DNA from: Hydractinia symbiolongicarpus
Taxonomy: Eukaryota; Cnidaria; Hydrozoa; Anthoathecata; Hydractiniidae
DNA length: 64,000 bases
NCBI RefSeq assembly: GCF_029227915.1
Contig: NC_079879.1
Span: 6,942,001-7,006,000, forward strand
Direction: 5' to 3'
Position 1 is the stretch's first letter; every line of letters starts with the position of its first letter. The translations under genes and the position numbers were made by a program. This document shows, in pieces, positions 22,872 through 50,400 of this stretch. The notes beneath the pieces are model-generated. The model worked only from the letters and a program-made list of their open reading frames with translations. It did no database searches and was not told where the DNA came from.

Positions 22872-23470
22872 ATGGCAAGCTTTTGGAAACAGCTTAGCTT
22901 GCTGCTGTGGAAGAATTATGCCATCAGAAAGAGACAGATAGTATGTATCTTTGTTATTTCTTTTGTTATGCAAATTTTCATGTATCTTTTACGAGTCATG
23001 TGGTAATAATGGTAACATGCCTTTTGTGCAGGGAGTGTCATTCTAAAGGAGAAAAAAGTATTTTTACAACCTATAAAACCTATTTGTTTTCTCAACCTAG
23101 AGAGGTTAAGCAAAATATAATGTTAAACCAACCTTATAGCAAAGTTTTCAAACATTTTAAGATTTGTAATAGATTCTAGGTCTGTAATATTAAATAAAAA
23201 AATTGACCACTAAGCATTAAAAAGATCAAGTTTGAATCTTTGTAATCCAAAACACTAGCGTGACAGTGCATTTGCAGTAAACTGATCCGTGGCTATCTTT
23301 TTTATCACTACAATACAAGACTTTTTTGTGTATTTAAAGTGGTTAATTTGTAAGTTGTAATTTTATTTAGTTTCGGAATTGTATGGAAATATTGTGGCCA
23401 CTCGCCATCTTTTTAATTCTTGTGTCTGTACGTCGTGAAAGACCCCCAGAGAATGTTCCTCCAAGTGGGC
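22872..23470 (+). CDS. ABCA: ABCA exons 1-2: N-terminus and TM1
   Basis: Exons 22872-22940 and 23371-23470. [20 protein letters not shown] is the characteristic N-terminal amphipathic ABCA sequence (QLxLLLWKNYxxRKR), which fixes the start codon. Exon 2 carries TM1 ([15 protein letters not shown]) and the first extracellular residues. The small intervening frame at 22907-23179 reads through the intron. Confidence 0.9.
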
Positions 23471-26400
23471 GTAAGTTTAGATATATTTTTAGTTAAACGC
23501 TCTGTCTGATCAGGTTAAACATATCAAATAACTATTTTAAGTTAAGAAGGATGAATATGTATTTTTATTTTTGCCATAATATTTTTCTGGGTGATAAATT
23601 TTTGGGCTATAAAATCCTTTTTTTAACTTAAAATGTATTGGTTTAATACACTTGAGCGTGTCTTTTTATGAGCAATGACAAATTCAGCCAACATATATGT
23701 AAAAACCTTGTGAATGGCATTCAAATGTACCAACTTTACCTTGCAGCAGCCTCAACAAAATTACCACTTTATAAAATTGTTGTATGTTATAATGTGTTTT
23801 ATAAGTATGTGCATGTTAAAAATATAGGCAATATTTTTTGTAGCACCTTATTTCTGACCTGATGGATTTTTGTTGTTGATATTTTAGAATCAATCTATTT
23901 TGTACCTCGTGCTCTTCCATCTGCTGGTGCCATACCATTTGTACAATCTTTATATTGCAATTTTAAAGACGTCAACAAGTTCTTAGCGAGTCCACAGGAA
24001 CTTCCAAAATTCACTAGCTCAGTGTAAGTCTTTTCTAGGGGTTTTTAGATTTTTTTGCATATAAAATTATAAAAGAAAATAGGGATTCTTAAGTACTTTT
24101 ACAAGTTGGACTTACTAAAAGATTTGCATGAGAAATTCAAAATTATATATCCACTTTTTGAAATTCGAGATGTGGTTTTTTAAATACTTATTTATTTCTA
24201 TTGACGCTTGACTGCCACTTTCACCTTCTTCTTTGAAATGAGAAGTTAGAGTAGTTATGGCATGTTCCAATGGTTTTCCATTTTTGTTTACATGCACCAG
24301 TTGAGCATAAAGAGTGGCAGCATTAAGGATGGCTGCAATATTGTTCCATGTATGCCTTTAAAAAAAAGTAATTGGACGAGGGCAATTGTTGACATAGTTG
24401 ACATACTCTAAATTCACATCTAGTTACCTTAATTCTTTGTATCTAACATTGTTAAGTGGAAACACACTTTAATGATGTGCTCCCTACATATTGCATATAA
24501 AGAAACCTTAATTAGGCAGTAATCTCTGTCTCTTACTGTATTATGAAATGCATTAACCCTATTCGGTCCGGGGGGGGGGGGGATTCCGCCCCCCCCTGTT
24601 TTTTTTTTAATAACTCCTGATTGCTTTGTTATATGGCTATGATACTACTGAGTTTCAACATTTATCTATTAGACACCTGCATGCTAATTTTTTAGGTCCC
24701 ATACCTTTCAGAGGCTTTGATATTGGCCATTACTCGAAACTACCCCTAAAAATCTCTATGAAATCCTTATAATGGGGAAAATATAATAACTCCTGTTAGG
24801 ATTATCCTTAGAACTTGAAACTTGCAACACAACTTTGTTTCATCAAGAAGAATCATTTTGAATAATTTGAACACGTGACTAATCCGATTTCCCGATTTTG
24901 TCGGATTTTACCCGAAAATTGGAAAAAAACGGATTTTCGGGCAATTTTTGGCAATTTTTCATCCGATCCATGTAAAAACCGGAAGATATGTTAAATAACT
25001 TTTATTTAGCTTTCAGAAACTTCAAACAGAATGTAAAAATTCGCTCTAGAACAAAAGTAATTATATTTTAAGCAGATAGTGGCATTTTTAACAATTTTCA
25101 AGCTTTTGATGACGTCACAGAAAATGTGCTGACGCAAGCAAATTTTTTTTGGCGCCATTTTGTTCCTTTTATGACGTACTATAAGTGTGCCAAGTTTGAT
25201 TCAATTTGAACAACCCTATGAAAAGTTATTGAGGGCTATGTTCGAAAAACCCCGGACCGAATAGGGTTAAAGAAGTGTTATACAAAATGCATGAAATTGC
25301 TTTCGTAGCTCAATTACTTTCGTAGCTCTTTACATTGATCTTTTTTTAAACTTTTTCTTTGATGGGCAACTTTAGGAGACTTCGTCCCCAAAGTCTGTTA
25401 GTTAGGTTTTTTATATTAATCCCTAGGAACGACAAGGTTGACGAGGACCAGACTTCTTTCTATCACAATCATTTGAGTAATCATAACCTGGATACAGCAG
25501 GTTATAGATTAGTAAATTTTATTTGAGTATATCATGCTGTGGGCTATAAAAGTCATTAATTACATAATAGGGTAAAAAATAGGCTGAAGAAGGTGAAAGT
25601 GACACTCAAGCATCGATATAAATAAATAATAAAATATTAAAAAACAATATCTGGAGTTTAACAAAAAATGGATATGTCTTTGGGAATTTCTCATGTGAAC
25701 ACGTTGTGATTATAACATTGTGTTTCATTTAATATTGAACAGGTTGATTGGCTAGGTTAGAACGGATTTATTAATACATATTTTAAAGAAATTAGTAGAT
25801 GAAATACATGTACTATTTGTCCCAAACATGTATAGTTTTGATTCTGTTATGTCTTTTTTAGCTTTTCTAAGTTTGCGAGTGATCTCAGTCCAATATTAAC
25901 CAACCAAACTAAACTGGGTTTATTAAGAAATATTTCAGCCAACATCAGTGCATTAGTCAGCCAGAGCCTTGGTATATTTCGGAGCTTTAACCAATCAGGT
26001 ATACATTATATAGTTAACACGGGAGTATGTACATTATACGAGACACATTGAAAATTTGTTTTAGACTTCAAAGGTTAACTACACCACCTAAAATTTCGTA
26101 AATAGCCTAAAATTTGGACCAAAGTTATTGACTTCTCCTAAAAGTTATGAAATTTATATATCCTAACATGCATTTATTCTTTTTGTACTTTTAATTATAG
26201 TTTTATAAAAGATTAGCCAGTACGCATTATCAATTCAAGGAAAAGTTTGATTATGGGTTGCCTAAAATTTTGTCAAAATCTCCTAGGAAATGAAATCGTT
26301 TTTATATGTATATTAGTGTTTTGCTCCTAAATTTTGACTCCCAAGCCTCCTAAAATTGTAAAATTTCAAATCTGTGGCCAGTTGTGTTTTGTACATACTG

Positions 26401-29400
26401 CTATTATAGAATTTCCTATCACCGATTTATTGGGAGATAACAGTGCTGCAGCTACCACGTTGCTAAAATCGGCAGGCTTAAGCGATTCTGTGGTTGCATC
26501 TTTGATTGGAAGCAAAGTAAAGGTTTGTAAATCTGCTCATTATTTATAAAATTTTTCACAGCATAGTTTTCTCTAATTGTAAATTATTGTACTTAAATGT
26601 CAAAAACAACCAAAAATATTAGTTGAATAAAATTTCAGGGTAAAAACACTGGCTGAAACATTTATGCTAGATTTTCAGAAAATCCCAAGAAAGTTTAAAA
26701 GAATTATAATTACTTAATTTGGAGAAACCTGAGTTTAACAATATTTGATGCTCTTAATACAAGTGCTAATGGGTATTCTGTCCAAAAGTTAACAATCATG
26801 TTTTATGTGTCTATAAAATTAGGAAAGTAAAAAAATTAAACAAATTTATGCAGAATCAACATTTTAGTTGGTAATGTACATAGCGTTTATCGCAAAAAAA
26901 GTAAATAGTTATAATTTTAAAAGCAAAAAGGACTTTGTGCAGATAAATAAAAAGAAACTGTTTATATTTTAGTTTCATTTTATTGTTGCTTTTACTCTTC
27001 TCTGATAAATCATTTTATTTCTTTTTAGTTTTCTGGTGCTGTTAAGTTCACAAGGAGCCTGAATTTAGGAGAAATTAGAAAATTGGTTAGCAATAGTAGC
27101 TTATTAATAACTACTTTCTTGGTATGTAGCATATATTTTTTTAAATATATTTTAGTCAGTGCAGATAAGAAAATTCGCGAAATTTGTTTATTCTTTGTCA
27201 ATAAAGTGTAGAGGTTGAAACGTTGGTCAAAATAATGTACAGGATCATATGTTCTCGACAAACGCCTGAAGATATCAGGGATTAAAATTTTTTCGGACAT
27301 CAGCAATCACCGTCAAAACCACCAAAATTTTTTTTTAGAACTTTGTATACCTGTTGTTTTATTTATTTTGACCAGCGTTTCAACCTCTACACATTATTGA
27401 CAAAGAATAAGAAAATTTTGCGAATTTTTTTATCTGCACCACATTGCTGACGTCAGCAAAACATCTAAAACAACTTTTATTGACCTTTTGCCTAAGTGGA
27501 TTTCTCCACAGGTCTTATCGACTATAGTTCCTGATGAAGACTTGCAAGAGCTGAAATAGAGAATAAACTTATGTCTCCCTTTCACTGTTTTAATGTAACT
27601 TTGTGTATTATACATTCAAGATTTTTATATAAATATAAACTACACACGTTTCTTAAAACTTACAGTATATATAATATATTTAAAATTTGGATTTCATTTT
27701 TTTTTTTTTTATTGGAACAACTTTTTTAACAAACTTTTTTCTTTTCTTTGGCAAGGATTTCTTATGTAAAAATATAATTAATTTAGTAAAAATGAAGAAC
27801 ATATGTGCTTTTTTTAAAACATAAGAAAAATTGAAATTGTGTGGCAGTTTTTGGTAAAGCTGTTGTTAATTTTAAAGTTTAAAAGTTGTGTTAGCAAGAA
27901 ATTGCACATGTGACATTTTAACATTGCAATAAATTAGAAAGACTGTTAAATGGTAATCAATGCAACTCAAAATAGTCATTTTAATTTTTTCCGTAATTTT
28001 TTTTAGGAAATAGGAAAAGGTTTATGCAATAATGAAACACTGTCCATGCTACTGGATTTCCCTAAAAATGTGTCTTCGGTAAATATTTATTTGTTGTTAA
28101 AATCTTTTTTTTAGTAGGCTCTCATTTATAGTCAAGGTTTATGTGTGAATCATTTTTTTAATAATCTAACATCTATTTCTTTTATCACATGCCTTGTTAT
28201 TAGCATCCTAAATAGATTGTAATTTTATGAGAGTGATAAATAATTTTTTACTTGACAATGCTTTTCGCAGTTTACAACAACGACTTAACCTGATGAATTA
28301 AACTAAGCAAATAGCTCTGTTGAGAGGGGAACCCAATAATATGTAAAAATAAATGGCTGTTCATTTTGCTGTGTACTTTGAATACACAAAAGCTGGTACA
28401 CAAGCCTTCGAATATTGTTTTACCAAAGAAATTACCTAAGTGTTAACAATTACAAGGGATTTACTCTATCTACTATGAAATTATCCAAATATTTTTATAA
28501 TATTTATTTTTACCAAACCTTTTAAAATTAAAATAGTGCTGAGGAGAATGCCAAAGCACACTGAAGTAATTCTGAAGGCTTGTTTGTGCTTTTGGTCATT
28601 GTGTTTGCCAAGGCTTATTGAGTTTTTGACTATTGTTTAAGGCATTTTTTTCTGACAAAGGCCTTAGATGTATATAAATGCTTAAAATTGCAGTACTGCT
28701 TTAGCTATTATTTATCGAAGCGAATAGTTCTGAAATTCAAAGGCCGTGTACATCTTTTGTAGTACTTTGTGAAGAACTGTAGTAAATGTTATAGTGTCAA
28801 GCAAAATATGTACTTTATTTTTAAGGCTGATATTAGTAAGGAAGTATGCAACTTGTCACCTTTAAATTTGATCATCCTGGGGAATGGCATAAGTCAATAC
28901 GTGAGTCAGCATAGCAGCACCATTATTGCTGAATTAATGGTAATAATATTTATACTATTATAGTCTTATACTTATATTATATACTATTATATTATATATT
29001 TATACTATTATAGCATATGATCAAGGTTTGTAATGATTTTGTAATAGCAATTATGATAATAAAATATTAGAATAAATAGTCCAAAAGCTGGAAATGTCAT
29101 AATGTAAAATGACTTATATTCAATAAAAAATCTATTTTTGGTATACAAATTTCCAACTAATACAGGAATAAAAATAAAGAAAGAAAGAAATCACAGATAT
29201 TCAGTATTAATTCAGTTGATCTTATTTGACCTATTTTCACATAGAACATAACCAAAATTGACATGGAAACAATTGAAATGATTGAGACTGAGATTAATGT
29301 TCTCACATCAGAAGTAAGTGTATCATTTACAAATACCATGAATATATGTGTAGTTTTGAATTTGGTTTGTAAACTTATCTTGGTTTAATGTTGCAGTTGA

Positions 29401-32400
29401 ATCTTATTTTTTTAAGTATAAAAGCATTTTGATATTTTTTTAAGTTTCAGGAACTTAGAGGTTATGAGGGGATTTTCAGTGATGTTGTTGGGTTTATTCG
29501 TGGAAATGATTCTGGTGCAGGAATTCCTAGCATTGCAAGAGATTTTACTTTAAGAGAATTTATATGTGGCAAAAATGATACAAAGAGCCACACATCTAAA
29601 ACAGGAAATTCAACAACAACAGCACGTCCAACAACAACAGCAGGTGACACAACAAGCGAAACGACAACTAAAGCAACTTCAACAAGTCAAACAACAAATA
29701 AACCAACTACAACACCCAAAAAAACTACTAAAGTCCATGGTGGTGCGTTATAAATTTAATTCTCATTTGACCAGAGCTGAAATCTAAATTGAAGTTCTAC
29801 TCACAGTAAAAGTGCTTACAAAATTACAATACACACCTGTTCAGAATAAAACTTTATAAAATATGTTTTTGTTAGAAAGAGATTATCAAATTTGCTGCAA
29901 TAAAAATGCATGCAGTGAAACTTATTGTAAAACTGTTAAAAAAAATGCCATTGCTGTATTTTATTAAAAAAAGCATTCTATTTTTAAAGCATTAAAAAAA
30001 CTTTTAAAAGCTTAAACAATTGTTTTTTGTTATGGTCTGCATTTATGTTTAGTGGGTAAATTTGATGTGCAAAAAAAAATAAAAATAAAAGTGATCAGAA
30101 TTCACAACCAAATAATTTGAACCCAAACCTTGTGATAGAGATAAAAAATGTTTTCGCTATAACAAAAATGAAGCTGTATTTGTATAAAGGGCTATCAGGG
30201 CAACAAACAAAGGTTAGGAGCAACATTTTTTTTCCTGCTATGCACTATACATTAAATGGGAAAGTGATTAGTAGTTGAAGTATCTCAACAATATTGAATG
30301 TGTGTTTGACAACTTGTTTATGTTTTAAAGGTGGAAAGGATAAACAATGTAATCTTATTCCTCCATGGAGTAGAAGTGATTGTGGCTGGGGTGGAATATC
30401 CGAAAGCCAATGCCTTCGCCAAGGCTGCTGCTTTGATAGCAGTATAAAGAAAGCAAAATATTGTTTCTGTAAAACACGTAAGTTCGATGATTTCATAAAA
30501 AATAATCTTGGAATCAATCTTGTCTTTTACATTGTTTACCTATGCATTATTTTCTTCTTGTAAAAAAAACATTATGTTTTACTACAACCAGTTTTCCCAA
30601 TCACTCTAACTTCAGACAAGAAAATCCTCATGCGCAATCCTGAATTTGGCTAGGAAGAGTGATCTCACACTGTTAAAAACTTACTTTGTGGTGAATTATG
30701 TTTTAGTTAGCAGAAATAGCTGTTGCAATGTACGCAATCGATTTCTGACTCTGTTATCCAGTGGGTCAGGTGGCTCGTCTGCAATGTCTCAATTCTTCAC
30801 GCTGGCTTTACAAGGCAAGATCTTGTACACACCAGATAATAACAAAACAAGGGAAGTAGTTGGAAGAATATCTTCATTTTTGTCATCGGTACGTATTTTT
30901 TAGTTGTTTTTTTTTAAAACATTTGTACCAAGCTTTAAGTAATCTTAAGTCCTATAGTCTTTTTATTTTCCAAACAATTTAAACATGGTAATACATACTG
31001 GTATGTGACGTTGCTAGGATGCAATGTATCGTCATTATTTTGTTTTTTGATGCTATATAAATATTGCCAGTCATGGTGCACAACATTAGGAAGATTTGTT
31101 TATCACTTTTTTAACTATAGCTTTAAAATTTTCTTATTATAAGAGAAAATGTTATGTCTTTTAGTTTTCAAGGGGATTAAAGGCAGTTGCTAATTTGAAA
31201 CCACTTATTAGTTATGGCCTTAACATTACAGAAAGCTTTGTCAGGAACAGACAGCAATTGGAACAGGTAAATTTGCATTTTCCATGAACCAAGTAATACT
31301 TAATGTAATGTAACATTAGAGTAATGTGTGATGTCTATTGCAAATCAGGCTTCTCTATTTCTGGATACTTAATTGCTCAAAATAAATAAATTTATTAAAG
31401 GCTTATAACCAGGTATGTTAAGATACAGTCAATGTACGCTTTGCTTTGTCATGTGACCAAGGAAATAGAGGGTGGAATAAGCGGGAAAATATCACACATC
31501 GTTAGTTAGATTTGCAGGCCAACCCAACCTCTTGGTGTGAGATTTTTCAAGTACAGTAATTATATATTTCTTGTTATTCTTTTGTAATTTTATATTTCAA
31601 TACCCAGTCCGATTTACTACACTTTTATCGCATATACGAAGGTTTTAAAGAGTTAAAAAATCAAGTTATTTTCAATTGGATGCAATAAATGAGAAAATAA
31701 CGATGTGAGCATATGTAACAAAAATTTGAACTTTTGGCAACAAATTTATGGACAATATCTTGGTCAAGTAATTGTGACATATACTTAATAATAAGTAACT
31801 ATATAACAAAGTATTTTTTTTTTGTTTTCTCGGGACTTTATCCATTAATACTAGTTTTTTAAAAGAAATCTTTAACTTGTGTCAGGAAAATTATGTTAAA
31901 TTGGTTTTTGTATACATGAAATACCAAACTATTCAAACTTCTCTGTGGGAGAGCCAACGGAATAAACATTTAGCACAGATGCTATGGTTAAAGGTAGGGG
32001 GAAAGTCGGCTCACCCAAAATACCTAGATTGTTAGTGGTTGAAACTTATTGTCTTATTTTTTTTTGTTGATTCTGGTAAGAGGTCTCAACCTTACTGTTG
32101 TAGTGAATACCAATGACTTGGTCAAGTAGTAGGTGTCAGGTTAATCAAATAATTTCCAAGTTTTAATTATATGTTAATTAAATTAGATGACCTGGCTTGG
32201 TGCGATGTCTGAAGTAGATCTTGGCTATTTTTGTATTTTTAACCTTGTTTAGATTGAGTCTTTGGCAAAAATTATTTTGAACCTTAACATTACAAGTTAT
32301 GATCCACAGATACAAAAATCGCTACAAACGGTAGGTATTTATCAGGTATTTCCTTTCGTTGAATATCTAGGTCACTCCAGCTCAGTGGGATTCAGTGACA

Positions 32401-35400
32401 AAAAGCCACTTCCACTAATTATTTAAAGAACTAATAAAAGTTGTACTAGTTGTTAGCCCATGGAAAATCCACAAGAAGCATCAAATTTTATTTTAAATCA
32501 AAATATTTTATGTATTCTTAATACTTAATTTAGCCTAGAGATTCAACAAAAAATATAAAATATCTGCATCTCTTAAGGCTAAATGGAACAGGTTGAAATA
32601 ACTGCCTTCTTTCTCCTAAGGTGTTGGTAGGGGCTATTAGGGACTAAAATGGCACTAATTTCCTAAACCTGGGTCAACCCACCCATTTTGGAACAGACAC
32701 ATTGATGATATCAACAAAACACCTTTAGGCCTCAATATCTATGTAAATTTTTTTGTGCACCTAAGTGAATTTTTTAACGAGCTTATTGATTAGTTAGGTA
32801 TCAATGCAATACACATATTGCTATTCTCTTTGTAATTGTTTGATATTTTTTAACATTTTAAACAAGAATCTAAAAGTTTGCATTGGGGTTAAAATGCTGA
32901 AACCAATTGTGTTAGGTGTATTTTATTCCAACTTGCTCTGTTTTAAACCTTTTTTTAATGTTTTGTCTTACTTCTGAAATAAAAAGATTTTGTTTTGAAA
33001 GTAAATGATAAAAAAATATTTTTTTAAAAGAACATGTCCATTATCGAATTGTACATAATTTTGAATTTATTACAAAGTTTTTGATAATTTCTTTTCAAAA
33101 AAGCCACTTTGTTTTAAAACAAAAAAACCATTAGAATTCAAAATATGCAAAAACTTAATAAAATATAGTTTTTGCACATTTTTATTAGGTTAAGGTAACT
33201 GTTAGCCATTAATCTTTACTACAAAATTTTTTTGATATGTACACTTTAGTTTATCATCATAAAAAAAGCAGAAATTGTTTAAAAATATGCTTTAAAACAT
33301 AGTTGTTTTTTTTATTCTATGACCCAACTTTTTGTCTGTGAGCCAAACATGATAGCTAGAGGATGATTTCCGTGGATTTTCCTACGTGTGAATTGCCATG
33401 GATTCCCTTCTCCTTTTTGTGAACAGTTGCTAAATAGGGCATTTCCTTCAACTCATCAGGAATTCAGATGTTTGAAAGATTTTTTAAATAAAATGGAGAA
33501 ATAAAAAAAACACTTACATTTACGTTGCATACCTTGGCATGTTTTTTTCTGATGAGAGCGTGTTATGTGACACAAGGGAAAAAATCAAAGCAGACACTGT
33601 TCTCTAATTGTTATATGCTTTTAAATTTATTTAAAGTGTTAGCATTTTTAATTGATTTTATGCATAAGCCAAAATAAATCATTTTCTTTTAGTTCGTCAG
33701 TTTTATGAAGAAGAATGAAAGATATTTAAACTCTTCAATGATTACAGAATCACGAATACAATTTGTGAAGAACTACACAAATTTATTCCTCATGCTTTTT
33801 GATGAATTAGAAGCTGTCACGCGCTGCTACAATTTGTCAACTTTTTTCCAGCCAGTAAAAGAGGAAGAATTAACAAAGTATGCCACAATCAAATCAAATG
33901 GATTCTTTTTATCAGGTATGTTTTGACATTTTGTACTTGGTACTTGATGTTTTGTAATTGATTTGTGTTAACTTACCTTATATTGTGAAGATCAAGGCAT
34001 TTACAATTGTCAATTTTCAATATGGAAGGTTTATCATTTCTTAAACTGGATGATTAAGTAGGTGATGCCCTGAATGGCGCTTCTTTTATTATAAGGAAAA
34101 GTGTGATATAAGATGTAAACTGTCCTGTTCAAGAAATATAATAAACCCTGAAAATATTAATATGAATGTTGAACAGAGAAACAGAAGTAATATCTTCAAT
34201 GTTATGTTTAATTATGTTACCAATTTTTTGCAGCTTGAATACAGTATGATCATGTACAAAGGTGTTTACTATTTGCCCAAAGCTAAAGTTCAAGTGTTTA
34301 GTAATTCCCAGTTATAAATATCCCTGAGATGGTTGTTTTGTTTCAAAGCGTATGTAAAAACAGAAAGCATTTCAAGAATTAAACTTCCAGGAAATATCTG
34401 AACCATTTTGCTTTGCAAGAACTTTTAAAACCTTCCAAAAAGTTCAATTTTTGAAAAGTTCTAGTCACATAAATTATGTATAGCTTTTAAATGATTTCTA
34501 AAATCTTCCATAATGAATGTTGTGAAAACTAGTCAATGAAAAAATCCATGGAAAATCCCCCCTTCATTGCTTACGGCTACTTTTTTTGGCTCACAGACAG
34601 ATAGACAGACATAATGACAATCATTATAATTATAGAATTAAATTTTTACATTTAGCTATTGTATTTAACAATCTTCACAATGATGCTCCATACCCTAAGA
34701 GGCTAAGTTACACGTTAAGATACAATCCAGACTTTGCCCCAAGTACAGCTCGTACTAAATCAAGGTAAGAAATTTTATATTTAGTTTTTTGATTTAAATT
34801 TGTCCTGCAACCCGAAGAACCAAAAGAGATTGTGATTTCCTCAAGGAGAACCAGAAATACTTGGAAAGGTTTCTGTCTACGAAAATTTGTTTTGCTTATT
34901 TTGTCTATTAAGAATTTTTATTTAATAGACTACTTTCGGTGAAATCTAAATGTTTTTAGAAACTATTTTACAATTAGAAACTAACAGCTGGTGTTGACTT
35001 TTAATATGTAAGTTTGGTTTCTAATCTTACAATAACTGAAAAATTGTTTATAAGTTCGTTTAAATAAAACTTTTAAACAAAATGTTTTTAGAAACTATTT
35101 TACAATTAGAAACTAACAGCTTGTGTTGACTTTTAATATGTAAGTTTGGTTTCTAATCTTACAATAGCTGAAAAATTGTTTATAAGTTCGTTTAAATAAA
35201 ACTTTTAAACAAAATGTCTCATGTAATAATTAGAGAACAATTAGAATAATTAGAAATTTAATTAAACCAAAAAATTATAATTATGTTGGAACAATTATAC
35301 AATACTTTGATACTTTGATTAAAACTAACACATAATCATGATTGTACCAAGATATTTATTATAGCTAATATTATTATAACGAACTAGTTAGTGGTACGTG

Positions 35401-38400
35401 GAAAATTTTACGGGTTTGCCCGTTCTTTTTATGCTGTATTGCATATTCCATTTTGTATGACAGTCAGACAGACGTATACGGGTATTATAATATAAATAAT
35501 ATAGCAATAGCTATCTATTTTTTCTAATTTTTGCCCTATCCTTTTTAAGTAGCAACCCCCTACTTTTTTACTCACTGCTAGCATAGCTATATCACTATTT
35601 TTTCTTGCACTATCAAGGGCATTGTAAACTTCCTAAAAGATGTAGTAATGTTATGACAACATGTAAAAAGACATTAACACCTTCATAATACAGAATTAGC
35701 TGTTGATAAAAGGACATTTCAGTAGTTTGTAATTTCAAATTTTCTTTTAAAATCATCACTCATCCTTATCATAACACACAAAGAAAGTAAGAAAAAGATA
35801 AGATAAAAAAAGTGATTTATTTAGAAATAAATAATGATAAAAGTTACAAGACAGTCAATGCCCAAATTGTTTTATTTCAATGTTTTTAATGCACTTACCA
35901 AGTGCTAAAGTTGTGATAATATCAGTTACGTAAATTTTTATTTGTGTCTTGTGTGGTTCATGTGAAGATATAAAAAATTTATGCTGCAATAAAAACAATG
36001 TATTTAAAATTCGTATTTATTTGAATTTTGTGTTTTTAGTTTTGTAATCACATTTACGCATCATTAAGCACCATATTTACATTCACGTTTTAATGATTCT
36101 TACGTAATATTATATCTATTAGTTTTCTTTTCATGTCTTTGTTCATCAATACGTAAACAATTGGATCTGAGATTGTTTTCAGTATGAATCCATACTGTAT
36201 AAATAGTAAATGCAATTGGTTTGTTTCTCTTCTACCTGTTACTAATTGGTTTATTGCATCAATTAATTTTGGAACATAGCATACCATAAAGGTTAACACA
36301 ACACCAAAGCAAATTCTAGCTGCTTTTATCTCCCGTTGCTTTGTTTTATTTTTGTGATCAACTTTATTCTTCGTTGCTGCTATCAACCTTATTTGCTTTT
36401 TTGCAATAATAAATAACAGTGTATTGCTGGCTACTAAGAATATATAGGCTACTATAATAATGACAATCCATCCGTAAGATGACAAGAAATAACCTTCTTC
36501 CCTTTCTAAAACAGCAACAATAATTCCACTGATTCCATATGCAATAGAAAGAAGCCAAATAGATGCAATGACCATGTATATATGAGCTACTTTAATTTTA
36601 TTGATGTAAAAGAAAGGATATATTACTGCAATAAAACGCTCCACTGAGATTGCTACCATCATTAACGCAGAGAGAATGAAAAAAGATGTTACAAACCATA
36701 AATATATCCAAAAAATCTTAAACCAAATTTTATCACTACTGTTAAAGCCATAATATGAATACATAAGAAATACATTTAAACCAATGAAAATCAGCGAAGA
36801 AAATGCATCGCTGGCCAGTAAGCTCAACAAAAACTTTGTTGAGTGAGATTTTGATAGTTTTTTTTCTTTCCATATCCAAAAAAAAAACAATGAAACTAAG
36901 TATAAAGCCAAAAATTGACAGAACTGTTAATATTATGTGATGTGTGAACATGCTTGTGTACACATAAAATTTTGTGTAAAGTTTTTTCTGATATAAAAGA
37001 ATCGTTATTTCACCTGCAGAAAGAAAAACAAACATACAAATTGATTCTATTCGCAATATCAATTGTTAAACCCTCTAATTTTCTTTTTCCTCCTTTTTAT
37101 ATGTTATTATTCTTTGAATTTTATGGCTTCAAAAAAGGGGTTGAAAAGGAAAGAAAACATTGAATCAATAAAACTAAATTTTGGAAACAACTGCTGTATT
37201 CTTAAATCTAAAAGAAAAATCACATGTTCACGAAGCAGAGCAAACAACATCAATGCCATAATGCTTAAAGAAAATGTACAGTTAAAAAATTAAATTTTTA
37301 CTAAAATTCTTAGAGGATGAATTTTTTTTAAATCAGATTTAAAGGGAACCCAAGGTATAAAATGATGTACTTAATTAACAAGTCTTTTTAATTTTTTTAA
37401 AAAGCTTTTTTCGTTCTCAAAATATTCACATTTTAAGAATTTCAGATTTAATTATGCTCCATAAATTATGATGTCATATTAAGTAATAGCAAATTTTGAC
37501 TTTTTCTGTCATCAGTAATTTTAGACCTGTTACAAACTTTATAAATGTATAAAGGTGAATTGATTAACATAAATTTTTTTTGCCAAAATGACACTTGTTT
37601 GCTTATCCCAGGCCTTCTAATTTTTTGTTGATGTCCCAATAACTCAGGATGTGCAACTTCGTTTTCAATAAAATTTTATGGGTAAGCTTGTAAAAGTCCT
37701 ATATGTTCACTCACAAAATTTGGTCAACGAAAGAACGTAAGTCCTCCAAGAAATAAAAAAAACCTGAGCATTTATAAGCTTCTAATTGAATTTTAAATCT
37801 AAATTTAAAAGCCCTCTTGGCTATGAGTGAAAAATAATAGGATAAGAAATATCCTGTTCTTATCATGACAATCCGAAATAATTTGGACTCAGAGGTAATT
37901 TGTACCTTTGATTCAGTTTATAGTTTACTTCGATTTCATGTTGTTTAAGTATACGTGAAAACAAAAGGAAATTAACAAGTACACCTTGCAATGTTTTTCA
38001 TATAAACAGTTGTTTCCTTATATTGGATCTTTCCAAAACAGTCTTTTTCTTTCACATTAACATGCTGATGTACATCTCTTTCAGTGGTAGCCCTTCTTAA
38101 ACTTCCTTCAAGATCAATGAAATGTATAAATAATATGGCAATGTATTGTTAATAAATTCAATAATGGTAACAGTTTGGGCGTAGGCCTTTTTGTTTTCTT
38201 ATTTGCAGCAACAGCAAGGTATTATTTGTGTTATACTTCGTTTTAAGTTTTTGTTTATCAGTGCATATATGATTGGGTCCAATATCGTGTTCAATACAAT
38301 CCCATACCCAATAATCATTGCATGCCATTTATTGGGGTAGTTTTTATCAGTTACCAACTGAATTATTGCATCAACAAACTTTGGTGTGTAGGTTATAGTA

Positions 38401-41400
38401 AATGCTAAAACAACACCAAAACAAACCTTTGCAGCTTTTATTTCTTTAAGCATTGTTTTATGCTTTTTAAGATATTTGTTGTTGGTAGTAAGTGCCACTG
38501 AAGCTATTGAGTTGAGTTGACTTCTAGCAATAAAAAATAAGGCTGTGTTGCATGTAATCAAAAAAATATAAGATGTTATGACTATTATGATCCAACCATA
38601 AGATGACATCTCAAAGCCATCTTCTTTTCCTAACAATCCCAATGTCATCCCACTTGCACCGTAGACAAAAACCAGCAACCAGCTACAGCTTATTGCTATT
38701 TCTATGTGTGAACTTCTAACGTATGTTGAATAGACATATGGATATTTCACAGCAATATAGCGTTCAAGAGAAATTAATATCAGCGTAAATGCTGACAAAA
38801 TGACAGAGGTCGTTGTCAGCCATAAGAACACTACAAGATGCCTGTACCAATTCATAAAATTGATTTTGTGGTGAAGCTGATTTATAATCAAACTACTCAG
38901 TATAATCATAAACATTGCTGTTATTGAATCACACAACAACAAACTTGAGAGTAATTTTCCAGTATTTGTCCTGTATATTTTCTTTGTGTATATTATTGCT
39001 AAGATGAACAATGAAAGCCCAAGTCCAACAAGGGCTAGTGAAATATTAATAATATACTGAGTTTCATTTGCTGCTAGATCATCAACCGGTGCCATGTTGA
39101 TTAAGTTGTGTTACTTCTTTTTACAACTTTAGACTTTAACTTTTGATTTTATGAGAAGCCATTTGAGTACAGAAAGTTCCTTTACTTCATAAGGAACTAA
39201 ATTTATTTTTTATGTTCATTTTATTGTAATGTTCTTCTTTCATTTGATTTTTTTCAAACGTTTTATACAAACATAAGTCACAATCAAATGTTTTGTTAAG
39301 TGTACAATAAGATATTAGATAAAAAACAACATGCTGTGAAGTTCATGAGATCAACATTGTTACCTGTTTACTATTTTTATTCCATTGCTCTGTAAATAAG
39401 ACCAAGAATTATGTATTACAGAGTAAGCACACCCTTTTCTTGTTTTATAGGTTCAATGAAATAAAGATAAACCAAGTTTTAAAATTTATTGTGAGGAATC
39501 GATGGTGACTTAGATGTTATTAATACGTTTTTTATGTTTTAGCTTAACTCCCTTATCAGGAATAACATTGTTTTTAAACTCTCACTTGATTCATAAATCA
39601 TACAGCATAATAAAAATAAGGTTTCTTTGATTATTTTTAATCCAGCATCATAAAAATTTTGAAACTGATTAATAAGGTTTTCTTTCAAACAAAAAGAAAA
39701 TAAAAGCCATAAGAATTGTGTAAATTTTTCAAAAAAGTCTTGACTAATTATTTGGGCACATTTTTTGCATTTTGTCACTTTTTGAGAGAAGGGTTGATTG
39801 TCATAATTATTGTAAACACCTTTAAATTGTAAAACATAGCAGATGAAAGATTTGTAGCTACTCAACATTGATAGCAGCATATAATATCATATTGAAACAG
39901 ACCACAGTTGAACAAATATTTTTACTAAAACACGATACTACTGTTGAATTGCTTCACAATGTAATTAAAGAACAAAACAAATTAAAAAGGAGAGAAGAGA
40001 AAAAAAAGAATAAAGAGAGAATAAATGAAATATTTTTATATTCTGTTAACCCTATCGTGATCTAATTTTTTTAACAGTCTAGTATGAATTTGTTTGTTTA
40101 CTTTTTATTATTTTTTTCTTTACTTTTTTTACAACAAAACTACAGAAGATGAACATCAGTAATTAACATCTTGCTTTAAAACAAGATTTTTTCTTGTAAA
40201 GGAACAAAAAAAAAATCATTTTTCAATTTTATGTCACACAATGTTTATTTTTAAACAACAAAATATTTATAAAGGATTATTGTATCTTCTTAAGAATTTA
40301 CACTTAAAAATCACAATTTCTTTAATAGTTTATAAATACATATTTTATTCATGTTTATCCAACCAAAATAATGCTGACGTAATGTCAAAAAACAGGTTTT
40401 CGTAACTATTTACGAATAAAAAAATATTTTTGTGGGCAAAAAAAAGGATAAATGGATGTGATCCAAGAAAAATCGTTATACTTTTCTACTTGTAAATTTT
40501 GCCAAAGTAACTTTACTTTCTGACTGCAATAAAGACAATATTACCATCAAGAATGCGTAAAATAGACCGGTTTCTGCTATGCTAGAACATTTTTTTTCAT
40601 AACCCCCACCTATGTTAATATTACTTGCAAACAATATTACAATTTAAACCTGTCTTAATATCCTAATATTTTCTTTAGGGTGATTTGTTTTCGAAGATTG
40701 TACTTTTTCATATGTGTATTATCACAAGTTCTATTGTTACTTTTCAAACAGAACTTTCCCTTTGTGATTGTGTCTTTCATGCGCAATAAAGAAATTTTGC
40801 TTTTTTTAATTAAATCATTTTTGTTCTAGAGCTTTTAATTAAGTTAAAATATTTGGTCTTTTATAACACCCTCAAGTTTTTTTGTGAAGGAAGCTGTAAA
40901 CACATGCTGGGGATATATTTTTCCACAAGTTAACATGTCTTTTGTGTTACGTTTCGAATAACTTCACATTTTTGATATCTGAACATTAAATGATGTTTCT
41001 CTATCGTTTGATGTACTAGATCTTCCCAAAATATTTCTGGAAATCTGCTGTCTTAATTTTTTGTTGATAAACACATATATAATTGGATCTACAATGGTGT
41101 TTAAAACCAGCCCATAATCAACAAAAATGTCAATTAACCGATTACTTGTTTCTACACCATGTATCAATTTAAGAATGATTTGCAACATTGTTGGACTGTA
41201 AAATATAATAAGTGTTATTACTACTCCATAGCAAATTTTCGCAGCTCTTATTTGATGAGATTCCTGCCATGCCTGTGCGGATTTCACTGTGATGGGAGTT
41301 ATAACAACAGCTATGGATTTGAGCTGTTTCCAAGCAGTTATAAAGATAATTGTGTTAACTATCATTAAAATAATAATAGTGGAAGGGATAACAGAGGCAA

Positions 41401-44400
41401 TTGAATAGAACAGGACCATAACACGGTCTGCATAATCCACCATCCATAAAGTGAAACCCATGATCAAGTATAAAATGTTAATTGTCCAGTCCAACCCTAT
41501 TATTAAAAACACGTGGTTATCTTGAACTTTGTTTAAATAAAAGTAAGGCCACATTATGGCAACTAATCGATCTCCAGATATAAAAATTGTGTTTATTGCT
41601 GAATGAATCATGGAACTTGTAATTAACCACAGTGGCAACTCTATACATGTTGCATATTTTGTGTCGCCAATAACATTATGTTCGTACAATAGTCGTATAG
41701 TTGAATACATAATCATTCCACTAGCTGTGCTGATATCACAAAACATCAGACTAAGTAGAAAGCGACTTGAATTTTGTTCTCTGAGGTTGCTAGATTTCAT
41801 GATATAATAGATGACAATAACAGTCATTATCACTGACGCTACTGCTAGTATGGCCATCATGTAATGTGAAAATTTCGATACAGGATCATTTAACATCACC
41901 ATGTTGCTGTACGACTGAGTGGTGTGTGCGGTTTTATGGTATGGTTGCTTTTGTGATAAAATCGTTTTTTATATATTATATATCAATTTTTTTAGATCAA
42001 CTTTAAAAAACATCTGCTTTCTCAAATTTATTGTGCAAAGCCTATTGGTAATTTCCTTTTGTCTACCCAGTGTTTACATTGCACATACTTTTTCAAGTCT
42101 TTTTTTCCTTCAGAACTTCATAATACTAAAAGGTTTCATTAACACATCTATTCTTTAATTTACATTACTTTAATGTTCTTCTTCAATGGAAAAGGTACGT
42201 GTTGACGTGTGTTTCAAAATAACAATTGCTTTGTAAATACGCCATCTTCAGTAAAAGCATATGTTTATCCATATGTTAGTAACTTATTGTTTGTTTACTT
42301 TTTAGCTCAAACGAACATTTCTTATTTTTTTTAGCTAAACCGACCATTTCTTTGTTTTTTTATATTAAGTAAGAAATAAGAAGTATATAAGATACTATTA
42401 GTAGTATTATTTGCTATTTAAATCGGTATGTTTTTGATGAGTCTGTAAAATTACTAAATAATATATATTTTATTTGGATTTATTGTAATTGTTTTGTAAA
42501 AGTATTGTTATAATATAGACGTAAATCCAGGATCTGACATCAATAATTCCTATTGTTTTGGGTAGACGTAGCCCAAAGATTGCCTTAAACAAGTCCGAAT
42601 GCTAGTTTTTTTTATATAGAATAAACTTTGCACTTCCCTTTTTTTCCATTTTTTTTATTTTGTTCATTTTTAGAAAATTTTTTCATTTTGTTCATTTTTA
42701 GAAAATTTTTCCATGTTTCTAGCTTCTTACCAAAGAATTTTTAATTTGGAATCAATGATGTTGGGAAAGAATTTGTTTAGAAATAGGGGGTATAGGAAAA
42801 TTAGGATGTTTTGTAAGCATTCAATATCTTAACAAGATCTTTAGACACTTATAAAAATACCTGTTGTGTCTGATGTTAAAAATTTTAGAATCTTTTTTTT
42901 TTGTTTTGTTCTGTGCAAAAAAAAAAAAAAATGAATAAAATGTATAAAAAACACAACACTATTACAAATTTTTTGCAATTTCCTATTTTACTTTAGCACA
43001 GAATAGACACTCCTAAAAATTTTAACAAAAAACAAAAATACCTTGAGATGAGTCTTATAGAATTTGTTGTTCTTTTGTTCCTTAAATGAAGTAAAGGGGT
43101 CCCTATCCTCTGTACATTCAGCAATCTGTTAGATTTTCTAGACATCAACATTTTTTTTACGTATTAATCGTCACCAATATCCCATAATCTCGATTTTTTA
43201 AAAAAATTAATATCTTGATGGTTCTTTACAGGTGATTACACCCAGAAATGTAATAATTATCTCAACTTGGGTTGTTTTTTTTACGCCAGATTATAGGGTG
43301 CTTAAAATTCATACAAAGGATACCACTTTTGTTTTAGATACTGGAGACCTGGTCCAGGTCCCTGGGGCAGCACAGGATTTTGGACCTTCAGATACTTAAA
43401 TTTTGGTTTTGTATTTTTGCAAGATATGATTGAGAGAACATTTATAAATATCATCACAAACAAGACTGTATCAGAACCTGGTATCTATGTCCAACCATTT
43501 CCATATCCATGTTACATCAAAGACCAGTAAGTTGATAGTGTCATTTTTCTGTATTGAATAAATTTAGTTTGATTAACAAGGCTTACTAACTCAGAGATCT
43601 TGATTTTAGTTCTTGTAATTTTTTTTGTTAAATTATTTGTTTATATTGATATTTTATAAAAATATTTTATATTAAAAAGCTTGTTATTATCTGCGTGAAA
43701 ATAAATTTATTCCAAAATATTATTTTCCTTTTTTATATCAAACTTGAAGATTTGTGATAGAAATTTAAGGCAGTACTGCTCACTCTTATATACATGCTAT
43801 CAATTCTTAGGTCTACCTATGCTGTCTATGTAATAATCTTTTGTTGACCAAATTTCTAAATTATTTTAATAATTAAAAAAAACGCTTTGCATCTAATAGA
43901 CCTCCCCTTAAACCCCCATAAATCATTGTTCCCTTTCTTAAGGTTTATTAACGGTCTGGGAAATTTCATGCCACTTTTCATGACATTGGCCTGGGTGTAC
44001 ACGATTGCAATGATTGTTAAAAGTATCGTCTATGAGAAAGAACTTCGTCTAAAGGAAGTGATGAAGGTAAAATAATGCTTGGTCTTTTTTTTACTTTTTT
44101 CATTATTTAATGTGTTATTTTTTTAAAAGTTCAGATTCTGTTTCTAAAAATGTTTTTTTGTTTAAACTATTATTACTGTACTTTTTTCGTACGTAATTAT
44201 CTTGTAATTAATATAGAAAGTGTTGCGGAGCGTGGGACTGAGTCCCCTAGGTTTGCAAGCGAAAAAATTTACATGCATCTTTCGGTTGAAAAAAGTTTCC
44301 ATGTGCTCCATGGTAATTGATCAAACGGTTTCATCTTCGCCTTGATGAAACATTATCTTGGGGCTTTCTGTATTAGCAGTACCGCAGTGTGTTCGGGACG

Positions 44401-47400
44401 CAATATTGCATGTGCCAGTGACATATTTTGTTTAGAACCTGATGTGTCAGAAAAGCCTAAAAAGGTTAAACTGAACAAGAACGATGTCCGACATCAGTGT
44501 ACAGTTCGTGTCAAGTTACAAAAATGTAAAATATTTCTTTATCGGAAAATTATTTCCTGGTTTAGAAATTATGAGATTTCCCAATCTGGAAATTTTTGTT
44601 TTATACAAAAGTATAAAAACTTGATGTACTAGGAGAAAATCAAGGAAATACATCACGCTCTAATATATTTATGGGAACGAGGAAAATAGCTCCGCTGCGC
44701 TCCTCAAAAAGTTGTACCTTTACGGCTTCTGCATTTAACGCATAACACAGAGTCCACCTTCCATTATTTTTTTTTGTTTTTATTAATAGTATTTTTCGTA
44801 AAAGATTGCTTGCTGAACAAAGAAATGCTAGATTTTATTTTCACATATTTGTCTTAATGCAAAAAAATTCTCCCTTGGTTATATTTAGCAGGAGATTGAT
44901 TTTTAAGATGCTTCCTACAGTGATTGGGTTAAACACATCTTTGTAGCATATCCATTTAGTATAACACTCTTTTTAAACTACAAATAAGTTGAAACATAAA
45001 CATAAAAATCAGTTTTCATACAAGGTGATGCTTAGGACTATTAATCATCATTCATGTGAAATGTTGTTTCTTTTACAGGTTATGGGATTAACCAACACGA
45101 TACACTGGACTGCATGGTTTATAACAAGCTTCACTACCATGTTCATTGCAGTTGTTATTCTCACAATTCTGTTAAAGATGGGAAACATTCTGATCTACTC
45201 CAATCCTTTGGTTATAATTTTTGTACTCCTGAGTTTCACAAGTGCTTCTATTGCAATGGCTTTTTTGATCAGTGTATTCTTTTCGAAAGCAAACATCTCT
45301 GCTGCATGTGGAGGTATCATTTACTTTTTCACTTACTTGCCATATCCTTTGACTTTGTGGTATGAAGAAACAATGAACTTCAGTGAAAAAGGACTAGTTG
45401 TAAGCTGAGTTTTTATTTTATTTTGTTTTATGTTTTGTTTTTTTTCTTTGTTTTTTTATTTTTGCTGATTTCTGTTAAGGAGTTCATAAGCATAGCTACA
45501 AGCATATGGATTTAGGTGCTTAAATTATTAATTGCCAAAAAACTAAAGATTATAGCTTTTTCAAAGCTTGTTAAGACTCGTCTTTAACTTTCAATGCTGC
45601 AAAGTGCTCAGGCAAAAATACTGAATATTCTAAGCTTCAGCCAAGAGTACTTTAAAGAAAACAATTTGTATAAAACCAGTAAAAGAAAACAATGTAATCA
45701 CAAGTTATGACAATGTTGAACAAAACTAACAAAAAAACTGAAAGGTTACAATAACTGAAATCAATTTCTTTGTCCTTATTGCAATTGTTTAGTAGCAAGT
45801 AAAATTGGATGATATGAAATACAATCACATTATCCAAAGCAGTACTTTTAAATATATTTTGTTATATCTTTAGTCCATGTTCTCTACTACTGCTTTTGGA
45901 TTATCCTTTAAATACATCTCTCGCTGGGAAGAACAAGGGATTGGAGCGCAATGGTCAAATTTCTATAAGAACCCAATGGTATCAGATACATTTAGTTTGG
46001 GCTGGTCTGTGAACTTTATGTTGCTTGATACTGTTATTTACTTCTTATTGATGTGGTATTTTGAGCATGTTTTACCTGGTAAGTGAAAATAATAGGGATT
46101 TTCCCTGTTTTTTATGTTTACTTGCAGAAAAGACAAATATTTTTACATTTACAACCTCTTAACCCTATTTGGTATGGGCTTTTTTGACCCTTGTAAGTAT
46201 GGGGGGGGGGGCATAAAGTGCCCGCAGGATGTAACTTTTGTTCAGTTTGGTTTTAAGTGGCGAAACTTGGCACAAAGAAACATCAATATGTTTTGACTTA
46301 ATTAGTGACAAAATATTTAGATTGACATGTCATCACAGGAAGTCATAATGAGACAATGGTTAAAGATAATATATCTTTCTTGGAAATTTTCGTTTTTTAT
46401 CTTTTTTAAAACTATTTACAGTACTAGTCATTAAAAAGTAATATAAGAATATAAGATATTATTAGGAACATTAACAGGTGGTATAAAGACAAAGGATTAT
46501 TTTAAGGAGAAAATGGAAATGGATCATAAATCAAATCTTCAAGAATTTTTTTTTTCAAAAATCTATGTTTGAGAACCTTAGTGATAGTAGTTGTCATAGA
46601 ATAAAACGTGGTATATCTATTAGCACTTACGTCAGTAGCTACTCAATAGAGACAATTCGGATTGAAATGGGACAAAATGACCTATGACGTTATCATATGA
46701 CAATGGAAATAGAGAAATATGAAATTACAAACATACTTTTCTGTAAATTACCAATATTCCGGTCTGCAAATTACACAGTATGCATGTCAATATTGTATGA
46801 TGACTTTTTGTCACTATCACATACATAATCACATATTCATACAACTGGTTAGTTTAGAAACCATTTATTTTTAGCACTACATTAAAAAAGTCGATATGAC
46901 CACCTGTTAAAAAGGACAAAGTGACATTGACAGGACCATTTTTTGGAAATATTTTTTTTTATTTTCCGAAAGTCCAATAAAATTTAGGAAAAGTCACAAA
47001 CTTTCAGGTAATTTTATCCAGTATTTAAAAAGTTAGACTTTGAAAATGCCGCTGGCACGTTATGCCCCCCCCCTTTTTCGGAACCTTTATTAAAAACGTA
47101 GTTTTCATATTTTTGTCATTTGCAACAGTTAAAATGAATGTCAAAAATTTTAAAAATTTTCGTTTAGCAAGTGACTATGACCTATTTTTTGCCCTATTTT
47201 CAGGGCAGTATGGAGTACCAAAGCCTTGGTATTTTCCATTTACAAGTTCTTATTGGTTAGAAAAAGGAAGAAGGGCAAAAGTAGCAGCTCAAACAGAACA
47301 ATATACTCACAACACCTACTTTAAATATGAAAATGAGGTAGGTTTTTTATTATTTGGTTGAATTTAACGGACAAGGAATTAAAGTGAAATATTGTTAAAC

Positions 47401-50400
47401 TTAGAAAATAGATTGATGATGCTGTGAGTGTGGCACCCTGTAAAAATACACACAAAAAAGCTACATTTAATTAAAAAGAACTTTTTTCAGACTTTTTAAC
47501 CGATTAGTGTCTTAATATGTTAACAAATTTGACTAAATAATTGAAATGTCACACGCGTACCAAAATAATACTCAATTTAGATATTTATAAGCAAATATCG
47601 CTTAAAAAATAAATCAACCAATAGATCTTTTGAAACGGAATTTTTACTACACCTGCATGAATAGTGGTAATTAACGTACTCTTGGAAGTGTTCACAAAGA
47701 TTTCACAAATTATTTTTATTCAAAAATTGTTGAAATTTCGCGAAATTTTTGAACCAATAAAAATATTGGTCAACCTCTGTTCAAGTCCAAAAAATAGACC
47801 TGAAATGAATTCATTATTGCGAAAAAAACTAAATTAATTCCCAACAACAAGCCTTAAAATGGTTCATTTGCGAACAAAAATATTCACAAAATATCTTATC
47901 AAGACTTCATCACGAAAATTAATCTTTGTGAATGTAATTTTTGGACCTCTTGAAAAATAAATTCTCTGCAATAATCAATCAACTTTATTATGAAATTAAA
48001 GTAAACACTCTATTTAGCAACCTATCTGTAATAAAGATTTTGGAATAGACGCCCTTCTTAAACAGTTTAATTGTAAGGCTGTGCTTCGGTTTGTCCCTGT
48101 GTTAGATATTAAATTTGTACCTTTTTGTTGAGGAGAGTAATTGAGTATTTAAGGTAATGTAGGAGATTAAAAACAATGTATTCACTTGTAAATAATTTGT
48201 AGAGAATATTTTATGTGACGATAAATTAAAATTATTTTAGGAAGGTGAGGATATAGATCCTGAAGAATTACAACCACGAAATGTTTTTTCAAAAAAATTT
48301 GAGAATGATCCTGATATGAAAATCGGTGTAGATATCAAAAACTTAGTAAAGGTATCAAACATTATTGTTGCAACAATTATGAAAAGAATCAGCCTTTCTA
48401 GTTATTGTCATGTCAGCAGCTAATTGGGGACAGAACCTTTATTTACCTAATGTAAAGTTTTATCACATCAAGATTTGTCTCAACGACAATTGATTGCATA
48501 CTTCGATTAGAAAGGGAAAAAATTAGGTTATATCAGAACTATATGTGATAAGTTTTACCAACAAAGAGTGTTACTGAAGCAAGAGTAAAGGAATTCTTTT
48601 TATGTCAACGTTAGATGTCACGGCTTTTTCATATAATTTTTTACTACTTTGGTACCACCTTTGTTTGATTATCGTGTGCTGTCCCATTCATAGTAAAAAC
48701 CACTGATTATGTGCACATGGTTAGCAATTTTGTATTTTAAGTCATTGCTTGTTTGGTTTTGCAGGTGTACAGTCGTGGAAACAAAAAAGCATTGGATGGT
48801 TTAAACATGAAATTGTTTGAAAGTCAAGTTACTGCTTTGCTTGGACATAACGGAGCTGGAAAATCAACAACAATGTCTATACTTACTGGGTTGTTCCCTC
48901 CTACATCGGGAACAGCTGTTGTGTATGGACATGATATAAAAACAGACATTGAAGGTGTACGAAAAAGTTTAGGGCTTTGTCCTCAACATAATGTTTTATT
49001 TGATCAGTTGACAGTGGAAGAACACATGTGGTTTTATGGTAGATTAAAAGGGATGGGAAAAGATGAAATTCGTAAGGAGATTGAAAGGTAAGGCATTTTT
49101 TCCATTACCAATATCTTGGCATCATTGGTTTTCTGATTAAGGAAGTTGTTAAAAAAAATTTTGGCAACAGAAAAAAACCTCTGAGTATTTTAATTGTGTA
49201 CTTATTTGGAACTTATTTGGAAAAGGTATAAACATTTATTTTTTTGATATAACTTTATGTAGATTTTTGGTTGATGTTGGTTTGCCAAAAAAAAGGAATG
49301 AACTATCGTGCAATCTTTCTGGTGGCATGAAGCGAAAGTTATCTGTGGCTATGGCATTTATTGCTGAATCAAAAACTGTGATCTTAGACGAGCCAACCTC
49401 TGGAGTTGATCCTTACTCAAGAAGAGGGATATGGGACCTAATTTTGAAACATAAGCAAGGTTAGTTCTGATTTTGAGAGTTGTAAAAGCATGAAGGACTC
49501 GTACACTATAACTTAGTTCTTTAAATGAGACATTTCACAGTGCTTAATATTAGATTACTTTAATTTGAGAAAATCTTATAGGAAGACGTGATTTCTGGCT
49601 TTTTTCTGTGAAACGTGTGTCGCTAAACTTTCAAAAAATGACAACAAAGGGAGGTTTATTTAGTTCAAACTTTCTAAATGGCTGATTTGCGAAAATTTAT
49701 TCACTAAATTCTTTTGAAAATGTTTTGCTTTAAAAGATATGTTTTACCTAATATTCGGAACTGAGAAGTATATTTGGATTTTAGAAAAAAATAAATAAAG
49801 CAATGAAGGTTTAAAGGTGCAAAAAAATCCCCTAAAAAAATCTTTTGAAGTGGCTTTTTCCTCTTGTCTTCCATTTACAAAATAATATGCGTTTTGTTCA
49901 CTGCTTTTTTAAGTCAGTAGGGTAAAAACGAAATAAAAAATATTTTCAACTAGGACATTTATTTCAAACTTTTTTCTTAGCAGGAAATTTGAAAACTTAT
50001 AAGTTACAAAATTTCGAAGTTTATTGCAAAGGTTTTCTGTTGGAAAATTTACAATTTGTGAATTTTTAAAAGTCTATACCAAAAAATGCACAAGTTTTTA
50101 CACTTCCCTAAGATTCTCTGACTTAAGTACTGAATTAATTATTGTTTAAATAATTTTCACAAGAAGTATTAAGCAATCGACTTATTTACACAAGTGTCTC
50201 ACAACTTGACAATTGTTTTTAATTTTTTTTATCTAGGAAGAACAATCTTGTTGTCTACACATTACATGGACGAAGCTGATTTATTGGGAGACCGCATAAG
50301 CATTATCTCCAATGGCCAACTACAGTGTTGTGGTACACCTCTGTTTTTAAAGAGGTGTTTCAGTAAGGGGTATTTCTTGGCTGTAACTAAAGATGACGAC

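Follow-up and report, generated by a model that had tools for sequence, protein, structure and literature searches.

A putative trefoil domain carried by a threonine-rich stalk within the first extracellular domain of an ABCA1/4/7-type transporter from Hydractinia symbiolongicarpus

The first extracellular domain (ECD1) of human ABCA4 is described as containing the disulfides C54-C81, C75-C324, and C370-C519, with residues 325-365 forming the B-loop (PMC8501128). This segment is also named the S-loop, and its residues W339, Y340, Y345, and F348 are reported to hold substrate (PMC8219669). The matching loop is disordered in the ABCA1 structure as described (PMC9381790). The annulus at the bottom of the ABCA1 lipid tunnel (residues 363 and 368-379) comes after the loop.

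Trefoil (P-type) domains are found in a different setting. The trefoil factors TFF1, TFF2, and TFF3 are small secreted peptides with a six-cysteine trefoil and a Trp before Cys6. Trefoils also serve as accessory domains in lysosomal alpha-glucosidase and maltase-glucoamylase, which are enzymes and not transporters, and in frog integumentary mucins, where they adjoin Thr-rich stretches; these, too, are mucins rather than transporters. In the account of sugar binding by trefoil factors, Asp20 and Trp47 of TFF3 are given as the only residues that contact GlcNAc-alpha-1,4-Gal by side chain, the corresponding TFF1 residues are Asn14 and Trp41, and Ala mutants of these residues lose mucin binding or show reduced binding (PMC7221086). 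Monomeric TFFs are reported there not to agglutinate mucin (PMC7221086). The Hydra beta-trefoil proteins, as their source describes them, have a different fold and were set aside (PMC3531485). Among the titles and abstracts listed from the literature on trefoils with ABCA or ABC transporters, none describes a trefoil-bearing ABCA protein.

A 64,000-nucleotide stretch of the H. symbiolongicarpus genome, here called the window, holds an ABCA1/4/7-type full transporter gene at about 22872..62732 on the forward strand. The gene resembles human ABCA1, ABCA4, and ABCA7 (PDB 5xjy, 7lkp, and 8edw) at the N-terminus, at the end of ECD1, and in the first transmembrane domain (TMD1), and its nucleotide-binding domains (NBDs) and, clearly for the second copy only, its R1 regions are recognized by Pfam. 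The gene model is a chain of 49 exons with doubtful parts at 26523-29240, 30199-30706, 31886-33692, and 50620-51321; at 30199-30706, homology overrules the homology-blind chain. Exons 1-3 (22872..24023) encode the N-terminal membrane segment and the start of ECD1, with RKRQ, RALPSAG, and LYCN identified by alignment to ABCA1. The end of ECD1 (PYPCY) and the TMD1 exons lie at 43338..46078 (phmmer to ABCA1, PF12698), followed by NBD1 and a first R1-type region at 48765..50619 (PF00005, PF23321), the TMD2 and ECD2 exons at 52131..57822 (PF12698, E 2e-31), and NBD2, the R1 domain, and the C-terminus at 58605..62732 (PF00005; PF23321, E 1.1e-18). A 752-residue query for the first half, from which the stalk and trefoil described below were omitted, matched ABCA1 (3.6e-116), ABCA4 (4.2e-111), ABCA7 (7.1e-104), and ABCA3 (2.3e-63) by phmmer. 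The second R1_ABCA1 copy scores 67.4 bits against a cut-off of 27, and the first scores 24.9 bits in the joined half and 28.9 bits in the open reading frame alone. PF12698 and PF00005 match in each half, the union of the halves in one chain resting on the predicted exon chain, and the Walker A, signature, and Walker B motifs of both NBDs seem intact by eye. Because of these motifs and the domain matches in both halves, the predicted product is a full ABCA1/4/7-type transporter, and the gene is no pseudogene by these signs. Within ECD1, the first ~173-180 residues, which reach into exon 5 near 26.5 kb, align to ABCA1, and the alignment starts again at GKILYTPD in exon 11; from ~26.5 kb to 30.8 kb no piece aligned to ABCA1, and the exons between exon 5 and exon 11, exon 9 included, were placed by frame and order only.

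Other reading frames occur in the window. Three rhodopsin-type GPCR frames at 36093-36926, 38202-39110, and 40967-41968 (PF00001 E 4.2e-16, 1.3e-15, and 2.2e-13) lie on the reverse strand, opposite to the ABCA gene and inside its 8.6 kb intron 34765-43337. The stretch 4889-8886 (+) carries a REJ domain (PF02010, E 4.4e-61), TIG and PKD matches under the cut-off, and Cys-rich repeats, and is perhaps a polycystin-like gene. A long reading frame at 18767-19753 (+), with an HTH_32 match under the cut-off (E 0.0031), may belong to a mobile element or be a domesticated transposase gene.

The trefoil module of the ABCA gene lies in exon 10 (30331..30477, +), an exon of 147 nt in phase 1-1 with 48 full codons. 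The preliminary description of this DNA had claimed the spacing C-x10-C-x9-C-x4-CC-x10-C with RxDCGW and GCCFD; the spacing is found at 30348-30464 with RSDCGW and GCCFD, in an exon bounded by AG and GT. In a Pfam scan of the exon alone, PF00088 scores 46.9 bits, where the cut-off is 21 (E 2.4e-12), and the same domain is recognized in a hand-joined 1258-residue half-transporter (E 4.8e-10, 39.6 bits). When exon 10 was compared with 177635 distinct PDB sequences, the eight matches at E <=0.1 were porcine TFF2 (n=2), human TFF1 (n=3), human TFF3 (n=2), and, weakly, lysosomal alpha-glucosidase. By phmmer its best relatives in sequence are TFF2 (1.8e-13), TFF1 (3.7e-9), and TFF3 (3.8e-7), while the glucosidase matches reach E 0.061 by sequence and E 0.72 or worse by fold. 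Exon 10 has in common with the trefoil factors the six-Cys trefoil, GCCFD, and an Asp or Asn before Cys2, but it carries Tyr before Cys6 and forms one domain inside a membrane transporter. The exact six-Cys spacing arose in 4 of 1,000,000 composition-preserving shuffles of the exon 10 peptide; in view of this rarity and the Pfam score, chance spacing was rejected. Across the six frames of the window, a loosened six-Cys pattern matched exon 10 and nothing else. The single-sequence AlphaFold model of the trefoil is poor (pLDDT 64.0, pTM 0.42). Searched with this low-confidence model, Foldseek placed TFF1 or TFF3 in its top four matches (best E 0.071) and none of its 12 matches at E 0.001, so fold contributes little to the trefoil call. 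A seventh Cys (30468-30470) follows two residues past trefoil Cys6.

Directly upstream of the trefoil, and in frame with it, is a feature absent from the preliminary description. Exon 9 (29451..29742, +) encodes ECD1 up to the FICG cysteine (29565-29567) and then a Thr-rich, mucin-like stalk (29571..29739, +), defined by its composition: 57 residues with 23 Thr, 6 Ser, and 3 Pro (29 Thr/Ser). From this composition, the stalk is a candidate for O-glycosylation. The flanking exons had been taken for ordinary ABCA ECD1 exons, and this applies to one side only. Exon 11 (30707..30888, +) carries the NSCC cysteines (30721-30726), the equivalent of the annulus helix by position, and GKILYTPD, from which point it aligns to ABCA1. 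Exon 9 matches no PDB chain on its own and cannot be called ordinary, because its second half is the Thr-rich stalk.

The stalk and trefoil occupy the place of the S-loop. IVCG and PYCN of ABCA1 have their counterparts in the FICG and NSCC cysteines, GKILYTPD comes next, and 113 residues separate the two loop cysteines here against 45 in ABCA1. The ABCA4 loop from C324 to C370 is also 45 residues by its numbering. These human loops include NWYEDNNYKA and have no trefoil, whereas the 113 residues here include both stalk and trefoil. The forward frames of 29451-30888 contain no NWY- or YKxFLG-like S-loop motif (10 chance-like matches lie elsewhere in the gene), and no alternative S-loop exon was found in the neighbouring introns. 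It is the anchor cysteines, GKILYTPD, and the lack of an S-loop motif in 29451-30888 that assign the insert to this place. The aromatic residues W339, Y340, Y345, and F348 of an ABCA4-type importer have no counterpart here; this says nothing on the direction of transport, because ABCA1 has the same aromatics. The insert was placed by anchors, namely a short one consisting of a hydrophobic residue and CG, the NSCC cysteines, and GKILYTPD, and not by a continuous loop alignment: with the 752-residue query, the loop was not aligned as one block, and a 4.3-bit piece fell at GKILYTPD. The upstream anchor is weak, because exons 8, 9, 11, and 12 joined without the insert matched no PDB chain by phmmer at E 10. 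A MAFFT pair alignment with ABCA1 scattered ABCA1 residues inside the trefoil and was discarded.

The cysteines of ECD1 are in part those of ABCA4. Cysteines stand at the places of ABCA4 C75, C324, and C370, and further ECD1 cysteines are presumably the equivalents of C519 and C641. Exon 3 (23888-24023) keeps the C75 equivalent and lacks both partners of C54-C81, which are Ile and Asn in the ABCA1 alignment. Two cysteines are extra, the one after Cys6 (30468-30470) and one in NSCC (30721-30726), and these may pair mutually or between molecules. By its predicted position, the trefoil may adjoin the loop that touches transported lipid in human ABCA4, and a structural or gating role would suit the same position, close to the lipid entry.

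Relatives of the gene were sought in the genome (480.9 Mb in 76 contigs, the window lying on contig C5). Exon 11 matched only itself at E <=1 (1/1 candidates). The TMD exon at 45082-45399 gave five matches among eight candidates, comprising itself, two on C10 that belong to one gene, and a single match each on C7 and C4, in a search that would miss more distant ABCA genes. The closest paralogue is the ABCA1-like gene on C10 (about C10:22.194-22.215 Mb), where two pieces of the TMD exon match at 54 and 61 % identity, and its loop reads LCG-(42 residues)-PMILYSPN within one exon. From CG to [GP][KM]ILY, the loop spans 142 residues in the window gene, as against 70 for ABCA1 and 42 for the C10 paralogue; it is therefore variable, even within one genome. 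The DNA read around the paralogues (60 kb on C10, 30 kb on C7, and 40 kb on C4) yielded no trefoil, either by the loosened six-Cys pattern, which would miss one interrupted by an intron, or by tblastn at E 0.01 using two trefoil queries. One pattern match on C4 proved to be a Cys-rich low-complexity run and was rejected. The C7 gene has a compact ECD1, judged by the spacing of its matches, and the absence of a trefoil is less firm on C4 because the start of ECD1 was not located there. Among the ABCA genes read (the window gene and those on C10, C7, and C4), a trefoil was found in the window gene alone.

Whether exon 10 enters the protein depends on its junctions. With donors at 29742 (or 29739) and 30477 and acceptors at 30331 and 30707, the frame is open in phase 1-1, in agreement with the earlier reading of the exon as in frame with its neighbours, and since the exon is 147 nt long and of phase 1-1, the frame stays open without it as well. 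Splice matrices were trained on other junctions of this gene (34 donors and 34 acceptors), so that the four trefoil junctions did not enter the training. Among all GT or AG of the window, 29742, 30331, 30477, and 30707 score at percentiles 95.3, 92.5, 99.0, and 96.4; when they are ranked among these 34 donors and 34 acceptors instead, the lowest quarter takes in 29742, 30331, and 30707, and 30477 comes just above the median. Donor 29742 outscores 29739. The homology-blind exon chain for this gene bypassed the trefoil path, reading the 30331-30477 stretch in another frame. When this scoring was retrained for a sub-problem and run with five intron penalties, the trefoil path led only at -14. At -16 the skip path led it by 0.2, and at -12 and -8, where other chains led, it ranked second and third. 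At -4 the best chain held both exon 10 junctions together with four small exons, and the plain trefoil path scored 68.4, outside the top four. At 0.5, the codon log-odds for the trefoil frame come close to neutral. Given the undecided homology-blind scoring and the near-neutral coding log-odds, the assignment of exon 10 to the predicted protein is decided on homology, not on ab initio signals.

On that footing, exon 10 very probably encodes a domain that the ABCA protein uses. The domain match, the frame, the phase, and the ABCA1 homology on the flanks support the proposal that a trefoil is built into an ABCA ECD1; human ABCA1 and ABCA4, by their PDB sequences, are trefoil-free at this place. 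A cassette exon, with the trefoil present in some isoforms only, is somewhat unlikely, and it would be compatible with either of the roles weighed below. This reading arises because exon 10, in phase 1-1, is skippable: the joined and skipped readings are both open, the skip path is ahead at a penalty of -16, and 30331 belongs to the lowest-scoring quarter of acceptors in the gene. At penalties from -4 to -14, however, the plain trefoil path outscores the skip path by 1.8 to 11.8.

The role of the trefoil turns on its sugar site. As read from alignments to TFF2 and TFF1, exon 10 has Asp before Cys2, the place of TFF1 Asn14 and TFF3 Asp20, and before Cys6 it has Tyr in place of the Trp on which mucin binding by TFF1 and TFF3 depends. 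The combination of Asp or Asn with Trp that marks a TFF-type lectin is incomplete here, and exon 10 is not classed as one. Tyr can stack on sugar. With the Asp kept yet the Trp changed to Tyr, a glycan tether stays the suggestion it was in the preliminary description; if the trefoil is used in the ABCA protein, the chances that it acts as a glycan-binding tether are about even. A single trefoil could tether and not cross-link, because monomeric TFFs did not agglutinate mucin.

The main rival to a tether is a rigid structural plug in the S-loop place, one that would prop the base of ECD1 and gate the lipid path without glycan binding; pairing of the additional Cys past Cys6 with the additional one in NSCC could lock the trefoil to the ECD. 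The position upstream of the annulus-helix equivalent, the change from Trp to Tyr at the sugar site, and the nearness of the two extra cysteines to each other are all consistent with a plug. The 57-residue Thr-rich stalk, by contrast, points to a flexible, projecting module, and the sugar-site Asp is kept. Moreover, the loop is disordered in ABCA1 and short in the C10 paralogue, so a plug would seem unnecessary, and a plug is judged unlikely.

Trefoil exons are abundant elsewhere in this genome. Two tandem arrays with a period of 3.13 kb lie at C3:4015989-4274519 (-) and C3:9177585-9374692 (+), and their size is ~83 and ~63 units as estimated from span. All but two of the 150 PF00088 matches scored (from 615 candidates) are inside these C3 arrays; three of the matches listed contain TAA. 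Each of the array units read (L002, L007, L008, and two in L011) holds four trefoils, identity among seven compared units is 98.8-99.97 %, and the sugar-site Asp and Trp are kept in all four trefoils per unit. Three of the four trefoil exons in L007 are phase 1-1 by their nearest AG and GT, the same class as exon 10. The fourth (1939-2052) starts in phase 1 and runs into TGA before its GT, and for this reason each array unit may be its own gene. That three of the four L007 exons belong to the phase 1-1 class fits exon shuffling, in which a ready-made trefoil exon would have been inserted to give exon 10. Relatives of exon 10 were also sought in viral and prokaryote contigs, where the pattern matched 3 and 84 stretches and tblastn matched none.

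A genome so rich in trefoil exons makes stray copies conceivable, and together with the near-neutral coding score this lends something to the idea that exon 10 lies outside the protein, as a relic or as an intronic copy that is not spliced in. Such an origin is improbable for an exon with an intact frame, six exactly spaced cysteines, AG and GT ends, a phase that fits both neighbours, and a stalk upstream. An assembly or gene-model artefact fusing two genes, to which the uncertain places in the exon list and the stretch from ~26.5 kb to 30.8 kb without ABCA1 alignment might point, is highly improbable, since the contig is a single one of 35 Mb, the window is free of N, and ABCA1-aligned pieces flank the trefoil on both sides, on the same strand and in order.

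The explanation preferred overall, and judged probable, is that a trefoil on a Thr-rich stalk was gained in an ECD1 loop and holds lipid export near the glycocalyx or mucus. Insertion of a phase 1-1 exon into an ABCA1/4/7-type gene would have added the trefoil on its stalk, and the insertion site would be the variable ECD1 loop, where ABCA4 has its S-loop. Exon 10 would be spliced in, the stalk would be O-glycosylated and project from the base of the ECD, and the sugar cleft may be kept sufficiently for weak binding of surface or mucus glycans. Lipid export would thereby be held beside the glycocalyx or mucus layer. A bolder form, in which the S-loop has been swapped for a glycan-reading trefoil on a mucin-like stalk to give a lectin-gated or lectin-anchored lipid pump coupled to mucus or glycocalyx, is speculative and rather doubtful.

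If exon 10 is transcribed, the S-loop of ABCA ECD1, which contacts substrate in ABCA4 and is unresolved in ABCA1, would be exchangeable for a whole extracellular domain. The Hydractinia gene would then offer a natural test of the role of the S-loop, and it might directly connect lipid export with mucus at the animal surface.
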